Source: Catenulispora sp. EB89 (GTDB lineage: Bacteria; Actinomycetota; Actinomycetes; Streptomycetales; Catenulisporaceae). From it: 64,000 nucleotides of DNA. The position numbers and the translations under genes are program-made. Numbering within the stretch: position 1 is the stretch's first letter; each line of letters begins with the position of its first letter. A model generated the notes under the pieces. The model made no database searches. It was not told the origin of the DNA and saw nothing but the letters and a program-made list of their open reading frames with translations. The stretch lies in contig NZ_JBGCCU010000024.1 of the NCBI RefSeq assembly GCF_041261445.1, positions 124,001 to 188,000 of the forward strand, read 5' to 3'. This document shows positions 1 to 11,433 of the stretch, piece by piece.

Positions 1-1679
1 GCACCGGTGGCATGGGTGAGGTGTACCTCGGCACCCGCGACGGACGGTACGTCGCCGTCAAGCGCGTCAAGCCCCGCCTGGTCTCCGGCGAGCGGTTCAA
101 CCGCGAGGTCGCGATCCTGCACCGGGTGCCCTTCGGCGTCGCGCCGTCGCTGCTCGCCAGCGACAACACCGCGCCGGAGCCGTGGTTCGCCACCGAGTAC
201 GTGCCGGGCCTCACCGTGGACGACGCGATCCGCTCCTTCGGCCCGCTGACCGCCGGGGAACTGTGGCTGCTGCTGGCCGAGACCGCCGCGCATCTCCAGG
301 TCGTGCACGACGCCGGGATCGTGCACCGCGATCTGAAGCCGGCCAACATCATGCTGGTGCGCGACGGCGTGAAGCTCATCGACTTCGGCATCGCGCTGGC
401 CGACGACCAGTCCCGGCTGACGCGCAGCGGCGCGAGCTCCGGGACGCGCGGGTTCACGGCCCCGGAGCAGGAATCCGGGGACCGGGAGGTCTCGGCGCCG
501 GCCGACGTGTACTCGCTGGCCGCCACGCTGACCTACGCGGCCTCGGCCCGGCTGCCCGGCCTGGTCCTGGACATCGGGCCGATCCGGGCGCTGGACGCCG
601 ATCTGGCGGCCGTCATCGAACCCTGTTTCGCCGCCGACCCCCAGGCCCGGCCGACGGCCGCCGACCTGGTCGCCGCTGCCCGGGAGCACGCGGACGCCAC
701 GAGCACGTCCTGGCCGTCGGAGGCGATGGAGCGGATAGCCCGGCGGCGGGACTTCGCCGCGACGCCGGTGAGCGTGATCGACACGGTGGTCCCGCCGGAT
801 CAGGACATTGACACCGCCGAGCCGGAGGCCGGTCCGACGCGGTCGCTGGCCGATACGAAGAAGGCGGCGACGGCGACGCGTCGGCGTTATCTCGTGCCGC
901 TGGCGGCGATCGCGACGCTGTGCGCGCTGGTGGCCGGAGTGCTCGCGGTGCTGTCCTCGCACCAGAAATCCGGGTCGCACCCGATTTCGGCGGCGTCCGG
1001 GGCGGGCATCGTGCCGGTGGCCGGGGAGCTGTCGCCGTCCGCGGGGCGTACCGGCGGCACCGGCGGCACCGGCACGGCCACGGGCTCCGGCCGGCCGACG
1101 ACTCCGGGAGCGACCACGTCCGGCGCGGGTACGCAGCCGAGCGGGCCCTCGTCGAACGCGGCCGGCGGGCCGGGTCCGCAGCCCACCTCGGCGGTCGGCT
1201 CCACGCCGGGCTCGTCGCCGAAGGGCGGCGCCAGCTCGCCGGGGCGGCCGGTCGGCAGCACCACCGGGCCGGGCAGCACGCCGAGTTCCGCGCCGCCGCC
1301 GAAGTCCGGGCCGACGCCCACCGCGTCGTCGATTCCGGGCATCAACAGCGCCGACGACCCAGCGCGCGTTCCGAATTCCGAGGCGGACGTTGACGTGGCG
1401 TTCGGTGACGCGGCGTGCTCGGCGTGGCTGGACTCCGACGGCTCCGGCAACCTCGCGGGAGTGCTGAACACCTCGTGGACCCAGTCCTGCGTCGCCGAGA
1501 TCATCCGCAGCGACGGGTTGGCCTACACCTTCAGCGCCTCTCAATACGCTGAGAAGACGAACTTTCTGCCCGACCAGGGCTACTCGATGCAGATCTGTGT
1601 CTGGCACGCGGACCAGAAGAGCGGACAGGCGTGCTCGCCGCAGTTCGCGATGAGCGGCACCACGCCGGTCCAGAAGTAG
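1..1679 (+). CDS. Membrane Ser/Thr protein kinase (5' end cut by window edge)
   Basis: The gene is already open at base 3, and the first visible residues are the end of a glycine loop followed by MGEVYLG, so the true start lies upstream. Visible kinase motifs are the catalytic loop HRDLKPAN near visible residues 108-115, DFG near 127-129 and an APE-like motif. A single membrane segment follows at about residues 298-318. After it comes a long Ser/Thr/Pro/Gly-rich linker and a compact C-terminal domain of about 100 residues with three cysteines. This is the layout of actinobacterial PknB-type receptor kinases, with an extracellular sensor that carries no PASTA repeats. It converges on the next gene with only 8 bases between them. 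Confidence 0.9.
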   Translation, partial: TGGMGEVYLGTRDGRYVAVKRVKPRLVSGERFNREVAILHRVPFGVAPSLLASDNTAPEPWFATEYVPGLTVDDAIRSFGPLTAGELWLLLAETAAHLQVVHDAGIVHRDLKPANIMLVRDGVKLIDFGIALADDQSRLTRSGASSGTRGFTAPEQESGDREVSAPADVYSLAATLTYAASARLPGLVLDIGPIRALDADLAAVIEPCFAADPQARPTAADLVAAAREHADATSTSWPSEAMERIARRRDFAATPVSVIDTVVPPDQDIDTAEPEAGPTRSLADTKKAATATRRRYLVPLAAIATLCALVAGVLAVLSSHQKSGSHPISAASGAGIVPVAGELSPSAGRTGGTGGTGTATGSGRPTTPGATTSGAGTQPSGPSSNAAGGPGPQPTSAVGSTPGSSPKGGASSPGRPVGSTTGPGSTPSSAPPPKSGPTPTASSIPGINSADDPARVPNSEADVDVAFGDAACSAWLDSDGSGNLAGVLNTSWTQSCVAEIIRSDGLAYTFSASQYAEKTNFLPDQGYSMQICVWHADQKSGQACSPQFAMSGTTPVQK

Positions 1680-1687
1680 GCGTCCGG

Positions 1688-3265
1688 TCAGCTCTGCTCG
1701 TTCGCCTCGGCCGCGACCAGGGCGTCGACGTCGGCCTGGGTCTCGGCCCGGGCCTGGAACTGAAGGCCCACGCTGAAGCCCAGGTCGCCGCCGCCCCCGA
1801 GCGACTGGACCACCGCCGCCGCATCCGGGTCCTGACACGAGAGGTTCTTCGGGCGACCGACCGGAAGCTCGGCGGTCATCTCGCACTGGCCGGCCGGTTG
1901 TCGGCCGACGGTGACCCTGGCCGTCACGTCGACGACGACCGCATCGGTCGGCGCCGAAGCCACGACGCTGTTGACGGATACGGTGCATGTACTGTCCGAG
2001 CAGTACAGTTTCGGATCTTCGCCGTATTGGAAGACGACGCCGAGGTCGAGCGCGTCGGTGAGCGTCCTGGTCTGGTCGATCAGACTGGTGAAGAAGGGTG
2101 TAACAGAGGTCTGCGACGCGGAGTCGATCTCCGTGAGCTGCCCGAGCTGCGCGCTCGGTGGGACCAGACGGAGCACGCGGTAGGGCTGCGTGGTCGAGAT
2201 GTAGAGCACGCCTGCGGAGGTGGTCACGGGCGTCGCCGGATCGGTCTGTGCACTCTGTCCGTCCTGTGCACCCGGCGTGCTCTGTGCGCTCTGTGTAGTC
2301 GACGGCGGGAAGGCAGTGTCCTGAGACGTCAGCGCGGACTGCAGCGAGGCCGCCAGGTTCCCCGCTGAAGCCAGACCGGACGGCAGCAGCGCCTCCAGGG
2401 CGCTGTCGCCGGTGACCCACCTCCCCCGCACCGAGGCCGCCGGCGTGCCCGATGGCAGCGTCCCCAGCAGGCGGACCGACGCCGGGTCGGCGGCCTTGAA
2501 GTAGGTCCGGCCGCCGACCTCCAGGACGCTGAGCTCCCCGCCGCCGAGCTCGATGACGCCCTGCGCCTCGCCGCCGGACGTGACCGTCAGCTGCCAGGAG
2601 GAGCGGCCGTCGGGCGCGAGGCCGGTGTAGTGGAGCAGGGGTTGGGTGGACAGGTTCGCGAGTGCTTGGGTGACCGGGGTCTGATCAGTGTTCTGCGAGG
2701 GCTGGATGGTGCCGGTGCTCACGCTCGGCGCACTCGGCGTCTGCGGCGGGCGCGACACCGACGGCTTGTCGGGCAAAGCGGTCGGGGCCTGCGCACGGAC
2801 TTGTGTTCCCGGCCGCAGTGCCATCGCAGTCGCTGCGAATGCCAGCACCACGACCACCGCACCGACACCCACGGCGACCAGGCGCCGCCGGACGAGCGGC
2901 CGGCCAATGGCAATGGCCCGCGGCGATCCGACCGGCCCCGCCGACAGCCCGACACCGGCTCGATCACCGGCACCCTGCGCGCCCACGGCCGCAGTGCCCG
3001 CGCCGTGACCGTTCGCCGGGGCGACCGGCCTGGCGCCCCAAGGCGTCCGGGGCGCTGCCGTCACCGGCCGCACCGCCGCAGGCCGCACCGTCGAGCCCTG
3101 ATTCGCCGCCGCGAGCCCGATCGCCGTCAGCCGCTTCGGCTTGCCCTCGGCCCCGATCGGCGGCGGCGCCCCCAACTGCGGCGGCACGGCGCGCGGCGTC
3201 CGTTCCCAGATCGGCAGATCCGGGCGCGGGGCCCCGGGTCCCGTCCTCGGGCGTGAGCCGTCCAT
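1688..3265 (-). CDS. Single-pass membrane protein with large extracytoplasmic domain, unknown function
   Basis: This is a protein of 525 residues. The start chosen is the ATG at 3265, which has a GGGAGG ribosome site just upstream; an in-frame start 60 bases earlier has none. The N-terminal 125 residues are cytoplasmic-looking, rich in proline and basic residues. One hydrophobic segment lies at about 127-149. The remaining 375 residues look extracytoplasmic, with four cysteines in the last third and Thr/Gln/Ser-rich spacers. The domain has repeated beta-strand-like stretches ending in short phrases such as GGRTYFKA. It sits between a membrane kinase and a vWA/phosphatase/kinase set, so it may be a sensor or a substrate of that signalling group. 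I do not recognise the family. Confidence 0.75.
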   Translation of the reverse strand: MDGSRPRTGPGAPRPDLPIWERTPRAVPPQLGAPPPIGAEGKPKRLTAIGLAAANQGSTVRPAAVRPVTAAPRTPWGARPVAPANGHGAGTAAVGAQGAGDRAGVGLSAGPVGSPRAIAIGRPLVRRRLVAVGVGAVVVVLAFAATAMALRPGTQVRAQAPTALPDKPSVSRPPQTPSAPSVSTGTIQPSQNTDQTPVTQALANLSTQPLLHYTGLAPDGRSSWQLTVTSGGEAQGVIELGGGELSVLEVGGRTYFKAADPASVRLLGTLPSGTPAASVRGRWVTGDSALEALLPSGLASAGNLAASLQSALTSQDTAFPPSTTQSAQSTPGAQDGQSAQTDPATPVTTSAGVLYISTTQPYRVLRLVPPSAQLGQLTEIDSASQTSVTPFFTSLIDQTRTLTDALDLGVVFQYGEDPKLYCSDSTCTVSVNSVVASAPTDAVVVDVTARVTVGRQPAGQCEMTAELPVGRPKNLSCQDPDAAAVVQSLGGGGDLGFSVGLQFQARAETQADVDALVAAEANEQS

Positions 3266-3397: not shown

Positions 3398-4078
3398 ATG
3401 TCCGAGGCAAGAGGTGTGCTGCTGCCGGCCTACGTGCTGGTCGACGAGTCGGCGTCGATGGGTCCCTACGTGGACGACCTGTCCGCCGGACTGGTCTCGC
3501 TGTGTGAGGAGCTGCGGGCCGCGCCGATGCTGGCGGCGAAGCTCCGGCTGGCGGTGCTGGGGTTCTCGGACGACGTCCGGGTGCACCTGGCGGTGGCCGA
3601 CATGCGGGTCGAGACGAACCTGCCGCGGGTGAGCGTGCGCGGCAGCACCAACTACGGCGCGGCGTTCTCCGACCTGGCCGGACGCATCCCCACCGACGTG
3701 CGCTTCCTGCGCGACGAGGGCTACAAGGTGCACCGTCCGGTGGTGTTCTTCCTCAGCGACGGCCAGCCCACCGACTTCGGCTGGAAGCGGTCGCTGGCCA
3801 AGCTCACCGACCGGCAGAAGATGCCGGCCGCGCCGAACATCATCGCCTGCGGCATGGGGACGGCCGAGCGCAGGACCATCGCCGAGGTGGCGTCCCGACC
3901 GGAGTTCGGGTTCATCGCCGAGCGCGGCGCCGACCTCGGCAAGGCGATCTCAGAGTTCTTCCACGCGCTGACCGCGAGCCTGATCGCGTCCAGCCAGGCG
4001 CTGAACTCGGACCACCCGCAGCTGGTGGTCACCAAGCCCGAGGGGTTCTCCATCGTGCTGGACGAGGTCACGCCATGA
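3398..4078 (+). CDS. TerY-like von Willebrand factor A domain protein
   Basis: This protein of 226 residues consists of one vWA domain. The metal-ion adhesion site is visible as DESAS (D16, S18, S20), a later GSTNYG threonine, and FLSDGQPTD. The ATG at 3398 has GGGAGG eight bases upstream; an earlier in-frame ATG at 3383 lies inside that ribosome site and is unlikely. The stop overlaps the next gene's start (ATGA). Cytoplasmic vWA proteins of this type, TerY in the tellurite-resistance literature, bind partners in a metal-dependent way. Directly downstream are a PP2C phosphatase and an atypical kinase, the partners expected for a TerY-P signalling triad. Confidence 0.85.
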   Translation: MSEARGVLLPAYVLVDESASMGPYVDDLSAGLVSLCEELRAAPMLAAKLRLAVLGFSDDVRVHLAVADMRVETNLPRVSVRGSTNYGAAFSDLAGRIPTDVRFLRDEGYKVHRPVVFFLSDGQPTDFGWKRSLAKLTDRQKMPAAPNIIACGMGTAERRTIAEVASRPEFGFIAERGADLGKAISEFFHALTASLIASSQALNSDHPQLVVTKPEGFSIVLDEVTP

Positions 4079-5016
4079 TGTCCAGGCCGGCGGGCACGGC
4101 CGTACCGGACGACACCGCGCCGTGGCCCCGGATCACGGTCGACATCGCAGGGCCCGAATTCGAGCCGCGACCGCCGGAGCAGTTCGCGTTCGACTTCCCG
4201 GACACCGAGTGCGACGGATGGTCGACCCCTGATTTCACGGTCCGCTCCGCCTCCGTACGCGGGGCCAGCCACCGCTACTCGCGCAAGCCGCGCCAGGACG
4301 CGGCGCGGGTCGCCGTGCACGAGGAGGCCGGCGCCGTGGTGTTCGCGGTCGCCGACGGGGTTTCGGGCGCGACCGACTCGCAGCTCGGCGCACTGGAGGC
4401 GTGCCGGGCCGCGATGGAGCGGATGCTGCACCTGCTGTCGCAGGACGCGCGCGGCACGCAGGGCGGGACCCTGGACCTCGACAGCGTCGCGCACCACGCC
4501 GCCGAGCGGCTGCGGCAGCTCTCCGCGTGGCGGCTGGGCAGCAACGATCCGCAGAGCTCTGCGGTGGCCGCGGACTGGTACGCCACGACGCTGGTCGCCG
4601 GGATCGTGCTGCAGGAGCCGACCGGGCCGCGGGTGCGGGTCTTCCGGATCGGGGACTCGGGCGCCTGGCTGCTGGACCGCGCGACGGGCTCCTACCACGC
4701 GCTGTTGGGGACGAAGACGGGTTCCGACACCGACCTGGTGTCCAACGCGGTGCGGCCGCTGCCGCACGTCCCCGACCCGGTCGAGCAGACCACCGAGCAC
4801 CTGACCCCCAGCGAGGTGCTGCTCATCGGCACCGACGGCTTCGGGGACCCGCTCGGCGACGGGGACGGCCTGGTCGGCGCACTGTTCGCGCGGCACCTCG
4901 CGGTACCACCGACGCCGCTGCGGCTGGCGCACGTCCTGGACTTCTCGCGCGAAACCTTCGACGACGACCGGACCCTGGTCGCGGTCTGGCCGCGCTCGCC
5001 GGGAGGCGCGCCGTGA
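4075..5016 (+). CDS. PP2C-family protein phosphatase
   Basis: This 313-residue cytoplasmic protein has a PP2C fold. The metal-binding motifs are DGVSG (D94), GDSG, GTDGFGD (D254) and a DDD run at 296-298 near the C-terminus. No membrane segment or extra domain is seen. It overlaps the vWA gene by four bases (ATGA) and the kinase gene after it by four bases (GTGA), so the three are almost certainly translationally coupled. The expected role is removal of phosphate from Ser/Thr residues of proteins phosphorylated by the neighbouring kinase. The N-terminal 55 residues precede the PP2C core and are acidic and proline-rich. Confidence 0.9.
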   Translation: MMSRPAGTAVPDDTAPWPRITVDIAGPEFEPRPPEQFAFDFPDTECDGWSTPDFTVRSASVRGASHRYSRKPRQDAARVAVHEEAGAVVFAVADGVSGATDSQLGALEACRAAMERMLHLLSQDARGTQGGTLDLDSVAHHAAERLRQLSAWRLGSNDPQSSAVAADWYATTLVAGIVLQEPTGPRVRVFRIGDSGAWLLDRATGSYHALLGTKTGSDTDLVSNAVRPLPHVPDPVEQTTEHLTPSEVLLIGTDGFGDPLGDGDGLVGALFARHLAVPPTPLRLAHVLDFSRETFDDDRTLVAVWPRSPGGAP

Positions 5017-7148
5017 CCTCGGGCACCCGCACCGTGGAGCACTCCGACCTCCAACTCGGCGGCCAACTCGGACGCGGCGGCCAGGGCACGGTCTACCCGG
5101 TCGCGAACCGGAAGATCAACGAGGCGGCGAACGGCGGCTGGGAGGTCGTCTACAAGGAGTACAACACCGCCACGCTGGCCCTGCTCGACGCCGACGCACT
5201 GCGCGGCATGGTGGATCTGCTCGGCGGCCTGGACGCCGACGACGCGCGCTGGCTGTGCGACAAGACCGCGTGGCCGGTCGCCGTGGTCGAGCAGGCGGGG
5301 CAGGTCCGCGGGTTCCTGATGCGCGCGGTGCCGGACCGGTTCCGGTTCAGCATGCGGAGCCTGGCGGGGACGACGTCGCCGAAGACGGTGCTGACGAACC
5401 TGGAGTTCCTGCTCAACGACGAGGCGTACATCGCCGGGATCGGGCTGACCATCAGCCCGCGCGACCGCCTCGAACTGCTGGCCGACCTGGCCACGACACT
5501 GGACAGGCTGCACCGGATGGGCATCGCGGTCGGCGACATGTCGCCGCGGAACCTGTTGTTCTGCACGGGAAAGCAGGCGGGCTTCTTCCTCATCGACTGC
5601 GACGCCATGCGCCTGCACGGTGTCAGCACCCTGCCACAGGTCGAAACGCCCGACTGGCAGGCGCCGGCGGGCGAGGAGAAGGCGACCGGCGCGACGGACG
5701 TGTACAAGTTCGGGCTGGTGGCCGTCCGCGTCGCGGCCGGGCACCAGGCCACGACCGATACGGCGCGGCTGACGGCGCTGAGCGGCGGTCTCGGGGACCT
5801 GGCGCGGTCGAGCCTGGCCGCGGACGCGGGTCAGCGTCCTGCGACGGCGGGGAAGTGGATCGGGGAGTTGCGGGCCGCGGCGCGGACGGCTCCGGCTGTC
5901 GCGCCGACGCCGGTGCCGACGCCGGCGCCGCCGACGGCCGCGGGGTCGGGAGCGGGGGCTGGAGCGGGGTCTGGAGCGGCGGCAGGTTCCGGGGCGGGGG
6001 CTGCAGGATCGGGGGCCGGGTCCAGGGCCGGGGCGCCAACGCCGGGCACACCTGGCACGCCTGGCACGCCACCGGTCTACAAGGCTCCCAAGCCGGCCGG
6101 AAAGCTGATCGCCCGGTTCGGCGGGCTGGTGACCGCAGCGGTAGTCGTCCTCGCGATCGCACTGAACGCCAACCACAACTCGAGTGCCGCCGTCACGAAC
6201 GGAGGCTCCGGCTCGGGCGGCGCGTACACCTCGACCACATCCGGCGGCGACGCTTCAGGCGGATCCGACGCCACCGGCGGCACCGGGGCCGACGGTTCGA
6301 GCGTGACCGGCGGCACGACAGGCGGCGGCACCACCGGCGGCGGCACGAGCGTCGTCGGCGGAACCACAGGCTACGTCCCGCCACCGGTGACGACGACGTC
6401 GTCCGACAGCGGCGGCGTCACGGGTTCAGGCACCACCGGCGCCTACACCCCGCAGCCACCGCCTCCCCCGCCGGACCTCGTCAAGACCCTGCAGATCGGC
6501 GACTGCGTCTACGACGCCAACCCGTCCACCGCATCGAGCGCGAAGCTGTCCTCAGCCGCCTGCGTCCCGGGCTCCTTCAAGATCGTCGGCGCCTTCGACA
6601 ACACAACGAACATGAGCGCCTGCAACGGAGTCGGCCAAGTCTCGCAAACCGTCTCCTCCCCAACCGACAACCGCGTCATCTGCCTGAGCTACCAGTCGAA
6701 CGGCACCGCCTACTGGGCCACACCCGGCCAGTGCGTCTACGGCCTGAACGGCCCCGGCAACTCCTGGAACGCAGAGGCCTGCCAGACCGGCAACTTCAAG
6801 GTCGTGGCCCGCTACCCCCAGACCACCGACAAGAGCCGCTGCCCCGCCTGGCCGCAAAGCAACGAGAGCTACAGCTACCCCAACTCCGACTCGGGCCTGT
6901 CCGTATTGCTCTGTCTACAGATGAACTACCCCGACGCCCTGGGCAACGCCCAACAGAACGAGTGCCTGGTGAAGAACGGCAACACCTTCACCAACGTCGA
7001 CTCCTGCCCGAACTCCAACGTGATCGTATCCGGACGCACCAGCGCCTACGACGACCCGGCCTTCTGCGGCCACGACGGCGCGTCGTGGTGGCGCCCCTCG
7101 GAGTTCCCCGATCTTGGATACACCGTGTGTTGGCGCTGGAAGCAGTGA
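5013..7148 (+). CDS. Atypical membrane-anchored protein kinase of a TerY-P-like triad
   Basis: The start is the GTG at 5013, which overlaps the phosphatase stop (GTGA), giving 711 residues. The kinase domain is divergent: the glycine loop is GRGGQG (20-25) and the likely lysine is K48. The catalytic loop reads GDMSPRN (D175, N180) instead of HRDLKPxN, and DFG is replaced by DCD (D195). The essential acidic residues and asparagine are kept, so activity is plausible. A Gly/Ala/Pro linker leads to one membrane segment at about 365-385. A Gly/Thr-rich stalk follows, then a cysteine-rich region containing two similar units that begin IGDCVYD and PGQCVYG. The extracellular part may sense the envelope. 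It is the third gene of the vWA-PP2C-kinase set. Confidence 0.85.
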   Translation: MTSGTRTVEHSDLQLGGQLGRGGQGTVYPVANRKINEAANGGWEVVYKEYNTATLALLDADALRGMVDLLGGLDADDARWLCDKTAWPVAVVEQAGQVRGFLMRAVPDRFRFSMRSLAGTTSPKTVLTNLEFLLNDEAYIAGIGLTISPRDRLELLADLATTLDRLHRMGIAVGDMSPRNLLFCTGKQAGFFLIDCDAMRLHGVSTLPQVETPDWQAPAGEEKATGATDVYKFGLVAVRVAAGHQATTDTARLTALSGGLGDLARSSLAADAGQRPATAGKWIGELRAAARTAPAVAPTPVPTPAPPTAAGSGAGAGAGSGAAAGSGAGAAGSGAGSRAGAPTPGTPGTPGTPPVYKAPKPAGKLIARFGGLVTAAVVVLAIALNANHNSSAAVTNGGSGSGGAYTSTTSGGDASGGSDATGGTGADGSSVTGGTTGGGTTGGGTSVVGGTTGYVPPPVTTTSSDSGGVTGSGTTGAYTPQPPPPPPDLVKTLQIGDCVYDANPSTASSAKLSSAACVPGSFKIVGAFDNTTNMSACNGVGQVSQTVSSPTDNRVICLSYQSNGTAYWATPGQCVYGLNGPGNSWNAEACQTGNFKVVARYPQTTDKSRCPAWPQSNESYSYPNSDSGLSVLLCLQMNYPDALGNAQQNECLVKNGNTFTNVDSCPNSNVIVSGRTSAYDDPAFCGHDGASWWRPSEFPDLGYTVCWRWKQ

Positions 7149-7161
7149 TCCAGCAGCGCTG

Positions 7162-7196
7162 AACCGGCCTGCCCGAGAGTACGGGACAGGCCGGTT
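7162..7196. terminator. Strong hairpin between convergent units
   Basis: The arms AACCGGCCTGCCCG and CGGGACAGGCCGGTT pair over 14 base pairs with one bulged base, around a six-base loop. It lies just after the atypical kinase stop and just after the end of the small minus-strand ORF, so it could end transcription from both sides. There is no T-run, which is usual in GC-rich actinomycetes. Confidence 0.7.
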
Positions 7197-7218
7197 CGGT
7201 GTGCGGGTGTCTGGGAGA

Positions 7219-7281
7219 TCAGCCTCCGTAAAAGGCGCACATATGGCTGATGAAGACGCAGATGTGGAACAGGTTGCTCAC
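7219..7281 (-). CDS. Possible 20-residue peptide gene
   Basis: Reading the minus strand from a GTG at 7281 gives 20 residues and a TGA at 7219. The peptide is hydrophobic and aromatic with two cysteines, contains LFHICVFISHMCAFY and ends in GG. An AAGGAG ribosome site lies at 7292-7297, ten bases upstream. A promoter-like pair lies at 7352-7380, and the hairpin at 7162-7196 follows the stop. This full set of signals around so short a frame is what suggests a real gene. It could be a signalling or modified peptide; no modification enzyme is adjacent. A longer overlapping minus-strand frame (7046-7324) lacks these signals and runs into the kinase gene. Confidence 0.35.
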   Translation of the reverse strand: MSNLFHICVFISHMCAFYGG

Positions 7282-7351
7282 GAGGGGATTTCTCCTTGTC
7301 AACGCATGATTCGGGCCGCCACATCGGTTCCCCGCCACCGAGCTTGGAGCA

Positions 7352-7380
7352 ATCCTATTGATTCATCGGGGGTGCACCAA
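7352..7380 (-). promoter_or_regulatory. Candidate sigma-70-type promoter for the small peptide ORF
   Basis: On the minus strand, TTGGTG (7375-7380) and TAGGAT (7352-7357) are separated by exactly 17 bases. Transcription would start about 60 bases before the AAGGAG-GTG of the small ORF. The rest of 7282-7642 holds no gene that I can support. Confidence 0.4.
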
Positions 7381-7642
7381 GGCAAAGTTCGAATCTGTTT
7401 GAAGCCGTGACCCAGCACAGAACAGGTAAAGAAGCTTGCTTATACAAAGCCGCAGATCAGGTGCCCGAGGCGGTATCGATCAGGACGTACCGGCACGATG
7501 CGGCAGGTACCTGTGTCAAGCTGTGGAAAGTAGGGCACCAACTCAGTGCTCTGGTTTGCGGTCACCCCGGGCTGGGCACAGAGCCCTCGGTCCTCCATCG
7601 GTCGAGGGGCATGTCCGGCATCCGAGACATGCGAGGTGTTGT

Positions 7643-8176
7643 ATGGAGCTGCGGGGCGGTTCAGGCGCGCGAAAGCGACTGACCGAGATCCAATCACAGC
7701 TACTGACCACCAGGCACACCGCCGGGCTCGCGCAGCAGACGCTCAGCGAGTGGCTCGGCGTCGCCAGCCGCACCCTCCGCGACTGGGAAAAGGGCTACGA
7801 CTCGCCGAGCTTGAAACATCTTATTAGTTGGGCATATGCGCTCAGCTTCCGCCTGGCGATCGTTGATCCGCTCATAAGTTCGGAATTCTCGCCGGTGATA
7901 CTGGAGAACGGGGAATCCTTCGAACTCCACGAAATGCGACGGCTGACCCGGCCGCTGTGCTTCAGACGCAAAGAACGCAGGCTTTCGCAAGGCGATCTGG
8001 CCTTGCTCCTCGGGGTCAGCCGGTCTTCGATCCAGCGGTGGGAGGACTCCGAGAAGTTCCCGCAGCCCGTCGCGCTCATCGCGTGGGCCGGCCGGCTGGA
8101 GTACTCCGTCGAACTGAATCAGGCCACGAATGTAGTCGATGCGCCACGGCTGCGGCCCGACGAGGAAGCACCCTGA
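7643..8176 (+). CDS. Double helix-turn-helix (XRE-type) regulator
   Basis: This protein of 177 residues contains two successive Cro/C1-type helix-turn-helix domains. The first is around residues 15-65 (LAQQTLSEWLGVASRTLRDWE) and the second around 95-145 (LSQGDLALLLGVSRSSIQRWE). Both contain the SxxxLxxWE pattern of XRE repressors, so one chain may bind DNA like a covalent dimer. The ATG at 7643 has GAGG six bases upstream; longer in-frame extensions read through sequence without coding character. Base composition is noticeably richer in A and T than in neighbouring genes, for example around 7800-7900, which hints at acquisition by transfer. It lies 152 bases upstream of the AfsR-like gene on the same strand. 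Confidence 0.75.
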   Translation: MELRGGSGARKRLTEIQSQLLTTRHTAGLAQQTLSEWLGVASRTLRDWEKGYDSPSLKHLISWAYALSFRLAIVDPLISSEFSPVILENGESFELHEMRRLTRPLCFRRKERRLSQGDLALLLGVSRSSIQRWEDSEKFPQPVALIAWAGRLEYSVELNQATNVVDAPRLRPDEEAP

Positions 8177-8232
8177 CAGTGGGTTGGCCTCTGGTGGCCT
8201 CGTCCTCGACCTGGCGGCGCCGGTTTCTGATT

Positions 8233-8264
8233 CGCCACCTTTTGGCGTTAATTAGCTCTAGAGC
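8233..8264 (+). promoter_or_regulatory. Hairpin and palindrome upstream of the AfsR-like gene
   Basis: CGCCA-CCTTT-TGGCG (8233-8247) followed by TTAATTA looks like a small terminator for the upstream regulator. Immediately after it is the perfect ten-base palindrome GCTCTAGAGC (8255-8264), a possible operator before the gene starting at 8329. The 8177-8328 gap is AT-rich for this genome. Confidence 0.35.
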
Positions 8265-8328
8265 CTGATAACGGCCGGTGCAACCATGGGTACTGAGCAA
8301 CGTCCTGCAGTGCGTGAGGGGAGCACCC

Positions 8329-11300
8329 ATGCAGTACACCGTGCTCGGCCCCGTTGGTTTTCGAAACGATGAACGTTTTCAGGCCGCGGGCAATCCCAAG
8401 GAACAGGGCGTGCTGGCGATCCTGCTGATGGAGCGCGGCCGTGCCGTGTCCGCGCAGATGCTCGCCGACCGACTTTGGGACGAGCATCCTCCCCAGCAGT
8501 TCCGTTCCACATTACAGGCCCATATTTCACGACTTCGCCGCCGGCTGCGCGAGACCGGCCTGCTGACCGAGGTCATCGCCAGCAACCAGGCCGGCTATCG
8601 CATCGACGTGCCGGCCGACGACGTCGACGTGCACCACTTCGACCTCCTGGTCTCCCGGGCCCAGGCCCGCGTCGGGGCCGACCCGCGCTCGGCCCGCTCC
8701 TTGTTGCGCCAGGCCGAGGAGCTGTGGCGCGGCGAGCCGTTCGCCGGTTTGGGTGGGATGTGGGTGGAGACCATCCGGCGCATCCTCACCGACAAGCGGC
8801 GCACGGTGGTGCTCAGACGCCTGGAGCTGGATCTGCAGACCGGCGGCGATGCCGACGAGGCCGTCGCGGAGTTGACCGAACTGGCCTCCGGGAGCCGCAT
8901 CGACCAACGCGTCATCGAGCTCCTGATGATCGCCCTGGACGGTGCCGGACGGACCGACGACGCCCTGGCCCTCTTCCACGACACCAGAGACCGGCTTCGT
9001 GAAGAGGCGGGAACGGACCCGCGCCCCGAACTCCGCACGCTTCACCAACGCCTGCTCAACGGCCCCGTCAAACACCAGACCCCCGTGCCCGAACGCCGCA
9101 GCACGCCGGAGACCGTGGACACGCTGAATCCGGATCCGCCGTATGTGGCAGGACGCGAGGAAGAGCTTGCGACACTCCTCGCGGCCGTCACCGCGGACCT
9201 GCGTTCCGGCAAGCACGGTTCGGTCGTCGCCATCGAGGGGCTGGCCGGCGTCGGCAAGACGACCGTCGCGCTCCAGGCGGCGCACCTGCTTCGCTCCCGA
9301 TGCCCGGACGGTGCGTTGCAGGTCAACATGCACTCGCATGATCCACACCTGCCGCCCCTGGATCCGCAGCAGGCTCTGACGCAACTGCTCGACGCGATCG
9401 GCACACCGTGGCGCGAGCTGGGACGTGCCGACTCGCTCGTGGCGCTCCAAGCGCTCTGGCGAAAACGCACCGCCGGGCGCCGTCTGCTGCTCCTGCTCGA
9501 CGACGTCTCGGACGCGGCCCAGATCGAGTTGTTGCTTCCGCCCCCGGCGGGCACGATCGTCCTGATCACCTCACGCCGCCACCTGACCGGGCTGCCCCAC
9601 GGCCACCAGTTCACCCTCGGTCTGCTGCCCGACAGCGCCGCGACGGCACTCCTGGCGCACATCACCGACCGGACCCTGCCCCACGACGACGATCTCGTCC
9701 GGTTCACCCGATGCTGCGGCGGACTCGCGCTGGCCATCACCGTGGCCGCCGGGCACCTGCGGAGCCGACCGCTGTGGACCGTCGGGGACCTGGCCGACCG
9801 GCTGTCCACGACCTCGCAGTCGTTCGCCGATGACCCGCTGACCGGCCCGATCCACACCGCGTTCGCCATGTCCTACCAAACGCTGAGCAGCCCTCTGCGC
9901 GATCTGCTCCGCTACCTCGCGGCCCACCCCGGCCCGGACATCGGCCTGCCCGCCGCCGCGGCCATGTCCGGCGCGGCGCTGGCCGACACCGACATCAGGC
10001 TCGACAATTTGGTGGACCACCGACTCCTGGAGCACACCAGCGCTCACCGATTCATGCTGCACGACCTGCTCAGACAGTATGTCCTAGCGCAGGCCGACGA
10101 ACAGCAGAACCTTGACAACCAGCGGGGCGTCGACCGCGCCGTCGCCTTCTACCAAACCGCCGCCGCGCGCGCGGACCACGCCCTGCAGCCGCGCCGCCGT
10201 GAACTCCGGTATCCCGTGGCCTCAGCGCCGGTGGCAGGTGTGGATCTCGACACGCCCGAGCAGGCCCGGCGGTGGCTCGACAGCGAGGACGCCAACCTGT
10301 CCGCGGTCATCACCTGGTCGGTGCGGCTCGGCCGCGGCAGACACCTCGGACTGCTCCCCCACGTGCTGGCTCAGCACCTGGACCGGCGCGGGAACTGGCC
10401 TCAGGCTCTGCAGCTCATCGAGAATCTGCTCGCCGCCCCGGACACCGACTCTCCGGACGACCGACCGGACACCGTCAAGGCACGCCTGCTGACCGATCAC
10501 GCGGGGCTTTCCTTCCGGGCCTGCCGTTATGAGGACGCGTTGCAGAGCGGTCACGCCGCACTGGCCGTCTGGAAGGCCGACGACGACCGCTACGGCCAGG
10601 CGGACGCGCACGTCCAGATCGGGCGTGCGCACGACGCCACCGGACACCGCGGCCAGGCGATCGACGCCTTCCGGACGGCGGCTGCCTTGTACGGGAGCCT
10701 CGGCGACCTCAGCCGGGTGGCCGTGGCCGAGGATCAGTGGGCTGTCAACACGTTCCAGCAGGGGCACCAGGACGAGGCGATCGCGCGGGGCCGCCACGCT
10801 TTGGAGATCGCGCGCCGACAGAACGACCTGCCGGTCATCTGCGACGTCCTCATCAATTTGGGCGAGATGTACCGAAGGGCCGATGAGAACGGCCAAGCCC
10901 TGGCCTGCTTCCAGGAAGCCCGCACCCTGTCCGGGACGCTGGGCGACCCGCTCAACACCGCCTCGCTCGACGTCAACATCGCTGCCGTCTACGAACGCGC
11001 CGGGAACCACCAGCGGGCTCTGGCTTCCATGCAGGCCGCGTTGCAGAAGTTCCGGCAGCTCGGCGACCATCGCAACGAGATCGAGAGCCACATCCTGCTG
11101 GCCACGGTGCACACCAGCCTCGGGCATCCCGATTCGGCGTTCGAGGAGTTGCGGAACGCGGCCGAACTCGCGGCGCAGACGCACGATCAGCTGCGGCTGT
11201 TCCAGGTCCGGCTGGCGGAAGGCAGCACGCACTCCGCCGGCGGCGATGTCCGACGCGCTGTCGATGCGTACAAGGCGGCCCTGAAAATCGCCGAGGAAGC

Positions 11301-11433
11301 GGCCGCCTTGCCCGAGCAGGCCCGGGCGCACCGTACCCTCTCTGAGCTCTACGCGAGCCTGAGCATGACCGATCGCGCGCAGAGCCACCTGCGGGAGGCG
11401 GAAGCGATGGGACCGCAAGGCGACGATGCCTGA
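8329..11433 (+). CDS. AfsR/SARP-like regulator: winged helix, BTAD, NB-ARC ATPase and TPR repeats
   Basis: The ATG at 8329 is preceded by GAGGGGAG and gives 1034 residues. An OmpR-type winged helix covers about 1-95, and a bacterial transcriptional activation domain about 100-245. The NTPase module follows, with Walker A GLAGVGKTT (K310) and a LLLLDDV Walker B near 390. Tetratricopeptide repeats fill about 690-1030. This is the AfsR architecture; such proteins activate secondary metabolite or developmental genes and often respond to Ser/Thr kinases. Codon 62 is TTA (8512-8514), the rare leucine codon that makes translation depend on the bldA tRNA in streptomycetes. No biosynthetic cluster lies in the window, so the target is unknown. 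Confidence 0.9.
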   Translation: MQYTVLGPVGFRNDERFQAAGNPKEQGVLAILLMERGRAVSAQMLADRLWDEHPPQQFRSTLQAHISRLRRRLRETGLLTEVIASNQAGYRIDVPADDVDVHHFDLLVSRAQARVGADPRSARSLLRQAEELWRGEPFAGLGGMWVETIRRILTDKRRTVVLRRLELDLQTGGDADEAVAELTELASGSRIDQRVIELLMIALDGAGRTDDALALFHDTRDRLREEAGTDPRPELRTLHQRLLNGPVKHQTPVPERRSTPETVDTLNPDPPYVAGREEELATLLAAVTADLRSGKHGSVVAIEGLAGVGKTTVALQAAHLLRSRCPDGALQVNMHSHDPHLPPLDPQQALTQLLDAIGTPWRELGRADSLVALQALWRKRTAGRRLLLLLDDVSDAAQIELLLPPPAGTIVLITSRRHLTGLPHGHQFTLGLLPDSAATALLAHITDRTLPHDDDLVRFTRCCGGLALAITVAAGHLRSRPLWTVGDLADRLSTTSQSFADDPLTGPIHTAFAMSYQTLSSPLRDLLRYLAAHPGPDIGLPAAAAMSGAALADTDIRLDNLVDHRLLEHTSAHRFMLHDLLRQYVLAQADEQQNLDNQRGVDRAVAFYQTAAARADHALQPRRRELRYPVASAPVAGVDLDTPEQARRWLDSEDANLSAVITWSVRLGRGRHLGLLPHVLAQHLDRRGNWPQALQLIENLLAAPDTDSPDDRPDTVKARLLTDHAGLSFRACRYEDALQSGHAALAVWKADDDRYGQADAHVQIGRAHDATGHRGQAIDAFRTAAALYGSLGDLSRVAVAEDQWAVNTFQQGHQDEAIARGRHALEIARRQNDLPVICDVLINLGEMYRRADENGQALACFQEARTLSGTLGDPLNTASLDVNIAAVYERAGNHQRALASMQAALQKFRQLGDHRNEIESHILLATVHTSLGHPDSAFEELRNAAELAAQTHDQLRLFQVRLAEGSTHSAGGDVRRAVDAYKAALKIAEEAAALPEQARAHRTLSELYASLSMTDRAQSHLREAEAMGPQGDDA

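Follow-up and report, generated by a model that had tools for sequence, protein, structure and literature searches.

The window analysed here is a stretch of 64,000 nucleotides from Catenulispora sp. EB89 (C24:124001–188000, in a genome of 70 contigs and 11.9 Mb), and three successive genes near its left end encode a von Willebrand factor A (vWA) protein, a PP2C-type phosphatase and an atypical receptor kinase. Judged from its sequence, this locus is a membrane-receptor form of the triad known as TerY-P and, in Escherichia coli, as YegL–PphC–YegI, and not the anti-phage or Ter form, in which the kinase has a zinc-ribbon or OB-fold tail. The features of the locus, in window coordinates, are as follows (TM, transmembrane; MIDAS, metal ion-dependent adhesion site; L- and G-numbers here and below denote loci and genomes of the comparison sets).

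1–1679, plus strand, starting 102 bases to the left of the window (L003:13898–15679): conventional PknB-type Ser/Thr receptor kinase, 593 amino acids (Pfam Pkinase, E 1.8e-28)
1688–3265, minus strand: anchored protein (AnchP); cytosolic tail rich in Pro, a single TM helix and, outside the membrane, predicted LprG/LprF/LppX-like and Ig-like domains
2816–2881, minus strand: TM helix of AnchP, amino acids 129–150
3179–3217, minus strand: conserved motif LPxWxxTPRAVPP in the cytosolic tail of AnchP
3398–4078, plus strand: vWA protein, TerY/YegL-like, 226 amino acids, with an intact MIDAS (D16, S18, S20, T84, D121)
4075–5016, plus strand: PP2C-type phosphatase, 313 amino acids, with intact metal-binding residues
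5013–7148, plus strand: atypical receptor kinase, 711 amino acids
5013–5882, plus strand: domain of the atypical kinase (K48, G174-D175, N180, D195-C-D197)
6117–6173, plus strand: TM helix of the atypical kinase, amino acids 369–387
6465–7145, plus strand: ectodomain of the atypical kinase, three four-cysteine LppU-like repeats with 12 invariant cysteines

The vWA and PP2C genes overlap by four bases at ATGA (4075–4078), and the PP2C and kinase genes by four bases at GTGA (5013–5016); the vWA start was set at 3398 rather than 3383, by eye, from the GGGAGG just upstream. Both junctions bear out a first-pass annotation of the window, which had described three genes joined in this way and had likened their composition to TerY-P. 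The vWA protein matched Pfam VWA_2 (E 1.3e-6) and the phosphatase PP2C_2 (E 1.8e-18). In a scan of named relatives, in which the best 80 of 92 confirmed relatives were kept, we counted 78 loci spanning 18 genus names and metagenome-assembled genomes (MAGs) named only to a higher rank; Mycobacterium interjectum is included as two assemblies, and one Actinacidiphila strain number occurs twice. The nearest named relative was Catenulispora rubra (93% in the kinase domain). Custom profiles detected the full triad, with PP2C and vWA on the same strand and upstream of the kinase, in 69 of the 78 loci, and the PP2C–kinase junction was compatible with a four-base overlap in 62 of 72 cases examined. Two layouts were seen, with either one or two vWA genes. 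The PP2C residues D75, D94, D194, D254, D297 and D298 were invariant in 72 of 72 sequences, and one PP2C glycine was kept in 70 of 72. In strand-aware counts, the MIDAS was intact in all 74 single or PP2C-proximal vWA proteins and degenerate in the distal vWA of the two-vWA loci (32 of 32). The kinase and PP2C residue counts exclude L034, L037–L039, L041–L043, L044 and short hits. Among the 93 kinase hits used for the junction count are some canonical kinases (L085, L094) and one hit that is split (L099); the loci themselves were counted separately. The sequences place the vWA and PP2C proteins, with their metal-binding residues kept, in overlapping genes with the kinase.

At the family level, the kinase was detected at E 1e-3 in 13 of 14 genomes, with weak matches in many; at the class level, only 15 of 394 genomes were positive at E 1e-20, the window's own included, so the distribution of the module is patchy. 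The genome of strain EB89 has a second triad on another contig (L044, G000:C32:45000–62000; 7953–11266, minus strand), whose kinase of 306 amino acids lacks both TM helix and ectodomain. This second triad is followed by an Hsp70-like gene (Pfam E 4.8e-6), an arrangement that recalls yegD beside yegI in E. coli; in the congener locus L043, a DA1-like gene stands in between. In the two-vWA relatives, uncharacterised genes lie upstream (L113:1168–5998 and L101:1480–6313), one with a weak nSTAND3 match, and a Crp-type regulator is encoded downstream of one two-vWA locus (L113:9678–10373).

The atypical kinase scored below the Pfam Pkinase cut-off (E 9e-4). A 13-row profile of the kinase domain, E. 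coli YegI included, matched solved protein kinases (best E 7.4e-9), 299 sequences reaching E 0.01 or lower, and the same alignment placed GD opposite HRD and DCD opposite DFG, in agreement with the first-pass reading of these motifs. K48, D175, N180, D195 and D197 were invariant in 91 of 91 rows; at the level of sequence, this speaks against a kinase that lacks ATP binding, the outcome that the annotation had named as contrary to its proposal. C-terminal to the kinase domain are a linker, one TM helix and 12 cysteines arranged in three four-cysteine repeats, and the 711-residue protein contains no CxxC zinc-ribbon pattern. Two of the three repeats matched NCBIfam NF049863 (LppU/SCO3897) at 48.3 bits, against a curated cut-off of 25. 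The predicted topology supports the earlier description of an extracellular cysteine-rich repeat on an envelope-facing kinase. The ectodomain was modelled with a mean predicted local distance difference test score (pLDDT) of 88.7, and the model had no match in the PDB (Foldseek best E 0.3; VIA none at Z 2 or more; profile search none), which is an absence of match and not proof of a new fold.

The part outside the membrane differs among relatives. The 87 post-TM tails, which contain five genomes twice, fell into 13 single-linkage BLAST clusters. The ectodomain classes include the LppU-like 12-cysteine type, an 8-cysteine type that by eye resembles two such repeats, DUF4189 (E 3e-17 and 2e-10) and a protein with a weak SnoaL match (E 0.002, below the cut-off); others had no Pfam match. 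The kinase tree requires at least 20 ectodomain changes, counted on a rapidly built tree whose long branches are joined and without the rows that lack an ectodomain label, and 13 labels need at least 12 changes in any case. The tree excludes L034, L037–L039, L041 and L042 (same genomes as L061, L070, L086, L095, L118 and L132), L043 and hits shorter than 200 amino acids. Two mycobacteria carry such changes between closely similar copies. In Mycobacterium fragae (L130), the open reading frames (ORFs) at 3–2357, 3713–6271 and 7017–9581 encode a PknB-type kinase fused to the atypical kinase, a TM helix and an ectodomain, and two dual-kinase genes on this one contig show no difference through 13 successive 150-nt blocks, after which identity falls to 0.86 and 0.40 at the membrane and outside it. 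M. interjectum (L138) has a pair of kinases that share 98.9% identity over 1005 nt but differ in their ectodomains. An assembly artefact in a repeat region retains some likelihood as the source of these copies. Taken as a whole, the pattern looks like a receptor family with exchangeable sensors: in the sequences, one predicted TM helix separates a catalytic core that is intact from an outer domain that is interchangeable.

The same evidence bears on whether the locus is an anti-phage TerY-P defence module, in which the kinase would be triggered from inside and the membrane part would only localise it. TerY-P triads, with a vWA protein, PP2C and a kinase, act against T7-like phages according to a commentary (PMC7699616) and have been linked to restriction systems (PMC11090510), and the patchy distribution in the class fits such a role. 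However, the vWA protein matched no PADLOC model at E up to 1, even though the library includes a TerY model (which E. coli YegL matches weakly, E 0.032), and a PADLOC scan of the triad returned generic kinase matches only. Furthermore, the kinase lacks CxxC, Pfam found no nuclease or restriction gene among the eight flanking genes, and the swapping of ectodomains on a conserved kinase argues for a signal from outside. We consider the defence explanation decidedly unlikely. Nor do the tests applied here point to a Ter system: the genome search returned no TerD gene, no Ter or DNA-processing gene was recognised by Pfam among the eight flanking genes, and the PADLOC TerY model was not matched. 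The first-pass statement that no other ter genes are present holds for TerD, to which the search was limited; other ter families were not searched.

Besides the triad, the locus contains a conventional membrane kinase, as the annotation had noted. It is whole, with HRD at residue 143, DFG at residue 162 and a TM helix read by eye. Just outside the window lies an FHA gene (L003:12977–13780; window −1023 to −220), whose product has the GR...SRxH pattern (by eye), a C-terminal half that is conserved and matches no Pfam family, and a 44% paralogue on contig C11. The order FHA–PknB–AnchP–vWA–PP2C–kinase was conserved in four genomes of the genus, the window's included. Since this six-gene neighbourhood is kept in three congeners at 53–99% protein identity, it is not a product of chance. 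The conservation of gene order that the annotation had asked about thus exists in Catenulispora, but the exact order is a genus-level trait and not a general one; beyond the genus, AnchP, a PknB-type kinase or an FHA gene joins the triad one at a time. The first-pass interpretation is supported in part, and the complete phosphorylation circuit that it proposed would be a candidate reading only.

We also considered that only the triad is a unit and that PknB, FHA and AnchP are neighbours by chance or through a shared genomic island. The restriction of the six-gene order to the genus would agree with this. So would the Catenulispora genome G005, which retains FHA–PknB with only a PP2C fragment and so weakens any tight dependence among the parts, and the occurrence of FHA homologues in seven of the 394 genomes of the class, a set that overlaps with the kinase-positive genomes in the window's own genome alone. 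On the other hand, G006 and G007, of the same genus, have FHA–PknB–vWA–PP2C with no match for the atypical kinase or AnchP there. G002, from a sister genus, has the FHA, PknB, vWA and PP2C genes in another order, and its atypical kinase lies on another contig with no vWA or PP2C gene within reach. In three genomes without the atypical kinase at the locus (L172–L174), the PknB-type kinase and FHA genes thus remain next to those for vWA and PP2C. In M. fragae, the two kinases are fused; in Actinorhabdospora, a 49% FHA homologue lies between PP2C and the kinase; and AnchP stands beside triads in other genera. Canonical kinases are numerous in actinomycetes, and the distant Pkn hits in L069, L085, L112, L121 and L137 were for this reason not counted as an association. 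A triad that is merely surrounded by unrelated genes appears quite unlikely; the PknB-type kinase and the FHA gene share the locus with the triad and, from these comparisons, appear to belong to the unit.

Two further features adjoin the locus. At 7436–11433, the window encodes an HTH_3 protein and an AfsR/SARP-type regulator (BTAD, NB-ARC, TPR), whose place beside the locus is kept in G005, although little of the triad is left there. A gene of the GH19 chitinase/lysozyme family adjoins the FHA gene to the left of the window (L003:11446–12198, minus strand) and also in G006 (L172:8502–9116), a possible link to the envelope.

AnchP, which the annotation had listed as an anchored protein alongside the triad, has a single TM helix and relatives at 26–33% identity that flank triads in Streptomyces, Spongiactinospora and one Streptosporangiales MAG. 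Its outer part was modelled with a mean pLDDT of 81.7. For the first outer domain of this model, the best VIA matches were LprG, LprF and LppX (Z 10.6, 147 residues, root-mean-square deviation (rmsd) 3.5), and the top five rows were LprG/LprF (Z 10.3–10.6, rmsd 3.5–4.1); Foldseek alone did not rank LprG, LprF or LppX first. The second outer domain is predicted to be Ig-like, of a kind common to many sugar hydrolases. The cytosolic tail bears LPxWxxTPRAVPPP. When every ORF of 89 loci was searched with a loose form of the tail pattern, 15 matches were obtained, of which 14, from 13 distinct genomes, share a Pro-rich context and one (L116) is evidently due to chance. Searched as degenerate DNA, the exact motif occurred in three places in 394 genomes, namely in the window, in G265, where it belongs to an AnchP homologue encoded immediately behind a full triad, and in G304, which was rejected because Ser is read in place of Arg. 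A looser pattern found four sites in the window's own genome, one of them AnchP. A reading of the motif as a phosphosite was weakened by L067, which has Ile for Thr. AnchP or its motif adjoined 12 of 41 one-vWA loci, none of 30 two-vWA loci and none of seven loci without vWA, some flanks being cut by contig ends. AnchP, whose outer domain is predicted to be LprG/LppX-like and whose tail motif is conserved, is a further membrane protein next to the triad and a real partner of it in part of the family, as the fusion of vWA to AnchP in L081 also supports.

Some relatives of AnchP carry an additional domain. A scan of ten proteins, L075 together with nine homologues of AnchP, gave five matches to Endonuclea_NS_2 and one to a ribonuclease family; the nuclease-bearing proteins beside the triad are those of L062, L063, L073, L081, L085 and L090, and their tails extend 205–233 amino acids past the AnchP domain, compared with 7–11 in Catenulispora. 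The motif, as LPxWxxTPRA, also occurs on two proteins whose outer part was unmatched by the AnchP profile (L069:2972–4105 and L075:9668–12217). All three observations would suit a surface-conflict or kin-discrimination module, in which the triad controls AnchP as a tethered effector, the C-terminal nuclease is the weapon and Catenulispora keeps a nuclease-less version. Yet the nuclease domain is absent from the window's AnchP, the tails of L065, L067 and L129 (203, 51 and 80 amino acids) contain no recognised nuclease, the motif or AnchP stands beside only a minority of one-vWA loci, and a nuclease outside the cell could equally serve nutrient scavenging. We regard this explanation as doubtful.

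The preferred reading, a membrane-receptor phospho-switch, seems to us slightly on the probable side when taken as a whole. An envelope ligand, such as cell-wall or lipid material, would be bound by the kinase ectodomain and perhaps also by the LprG-like domain of AnchP, and its binding would switch autophosphorylation of the atypical kinase. PP2C would reset the kinase, by analogy with PphC and YegI. The vWA protein, with metal in its MIDAS, may be the adaptor that ties PP2C and the kinase to AnchP through the LPxWxxTPRAVPPP tail. The PknB-type kinase would add a second kinase to this circuit; the FHA protein might read phosphothreonine and relay the signal through its C-terminal half.

Several observations, together with those from G005 and the FHA homologues above, weigh against this model. 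The full triad is missing from nine of the 78 loci (L070; L109, at a contig edge; L118; L122, where the triad genes are on the other strand; L130–L133; and L135). The alpha-C Glu of the atypical kinase was not identified, and PphC gave no pairwise match to the window's PP2C, which belongs to PP2C_2. The tail motif was not found in 30 of the 41 one-vWA loci, some of which are cut by contig ends, so AnchP is not needed everywhere. L081 has a vWA domain (E 6e-67) in place of the AnchP tail, but the MIDAS of this fused vWA is degenerate, so it need not mimic the intact one.

A wider version of the model can be offered only tentatively. The family may perform plug-in surface surveillance in actinomycetes. 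One conserved cytosolic core, made of the atypical kinase, PP2C and vWA and in places joined by a PknB-type kinase and an FHA reader, would receive ectodomains swapped by recombination, and its vWA protein would dock, via the motif, TM-anchored LprG-fold proteins that can bear exchangeable nucleases at their C-termini; M. fragae, with its dual-kinase receptors, would then offer a snapshot of swapping. A form with an outside sensor and a putative docking motif of about 13 residues makes both the signal sensed by TerY-P/YegLKI and the role of the vWA protein testable with purified parts. The loci without the atypical kinase, AnchP or most of the phosphatase form a natural series of test material. 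The model would join atypical bacterial Ser/Thr kinases with envelope surveillance and would provide a receptor family in which ectodomain swapping is traceable at the DNA level.

Compared with known systems, the locus shares with the TerY-P triad (Anantharaman 2012; CoCoNuT and Gao 2020 versions) the joint encoding of vWA, PP2C and Ser/Thr kinase genes. The TerY-P kinase tail is described as a zinc ribbon or OB-fold (PMC11090510), whereas the Catenulispora kinase has a TM helix and a cysteine-repeat ectodomain. Single-sequence searches of the PDB with the PP2C and vWA proteins gave nothing at E 0.01. Sets of a TM kinase, PP2C and vWA in actinobacteria are already in print: the third theme of the GAP1-N2 GTPase neighbourhoods comprises an actinobacterial kinase fused to a zinc ribbon or TM helices, with PP2C and a standalone vWA (PMC7159879). 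A GAP1-N2 assignment was rejected for the window, as the genome's single GAP1-N2 match is on contig C3 and the triad on C24. Among two-vWA relatives, none of seven upstream neighbours tested (L038, L040, L101, L113) matched a GAP1 model, although a divergent GAP1 might escape this test. Exchangeable ectodomains, an anchored partner with a motif and a PknB/FHA link do not appear for the third-theme triads in the available parts of that paper. In the open-access literature searched, we did not find exchangeable ectodomains, an LprG-fold partner with motif and nucleases, or the PknB/FHA link; we do not claim that they are absent from print.

PknB-type receptor kinases share the layout with one TM helix, but the triad kinase has GD and DCD in place of HRD and DFG and falls below the Pfam Pkinase cut-off. 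The first outer domain of AnchP has a predicted fold like that of the mycobacterial lipoproteins LprG, LprF and LppX (Z 10.6 to 9.2); unlike them, AnchP is TM-anchored with a cytosolic tail and has an added Ig-like domain, and identity is 11–14%. In Sulfolobus, the ArnA (FHA)–ArnB (vWA) network brings FHA, vWA, kinases and a phosphatase together in one phospho-circuit (PMC6509490); this archaeal system is an analogy only. The E. coli YegL–PphC(YegK)–YegI system has the same three kinds of component as the Catenulispora triad. The window's vWA protein is 28% identical to YegL over 160 columns (E 1e-13, small database), and YegI is 27% identical to the kinase of the congener locus L035 (E 4e-9, small database), and the catalytic K, GD and DxD of the two fall in the same alignment columns. 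YegI, a membrane-bound kinase, is described as phosphorylating itself and as being dephosphorylated by PphC (PMC13232886). The C-terminal part of YegI has a helix-hairpin-helix match, in contrast to the LppU-like ectodomain of the Catenulispora kinase, and the E. coli neighbours also differ, with yegJ between the genes and the Hsp70-family yegD beside them.

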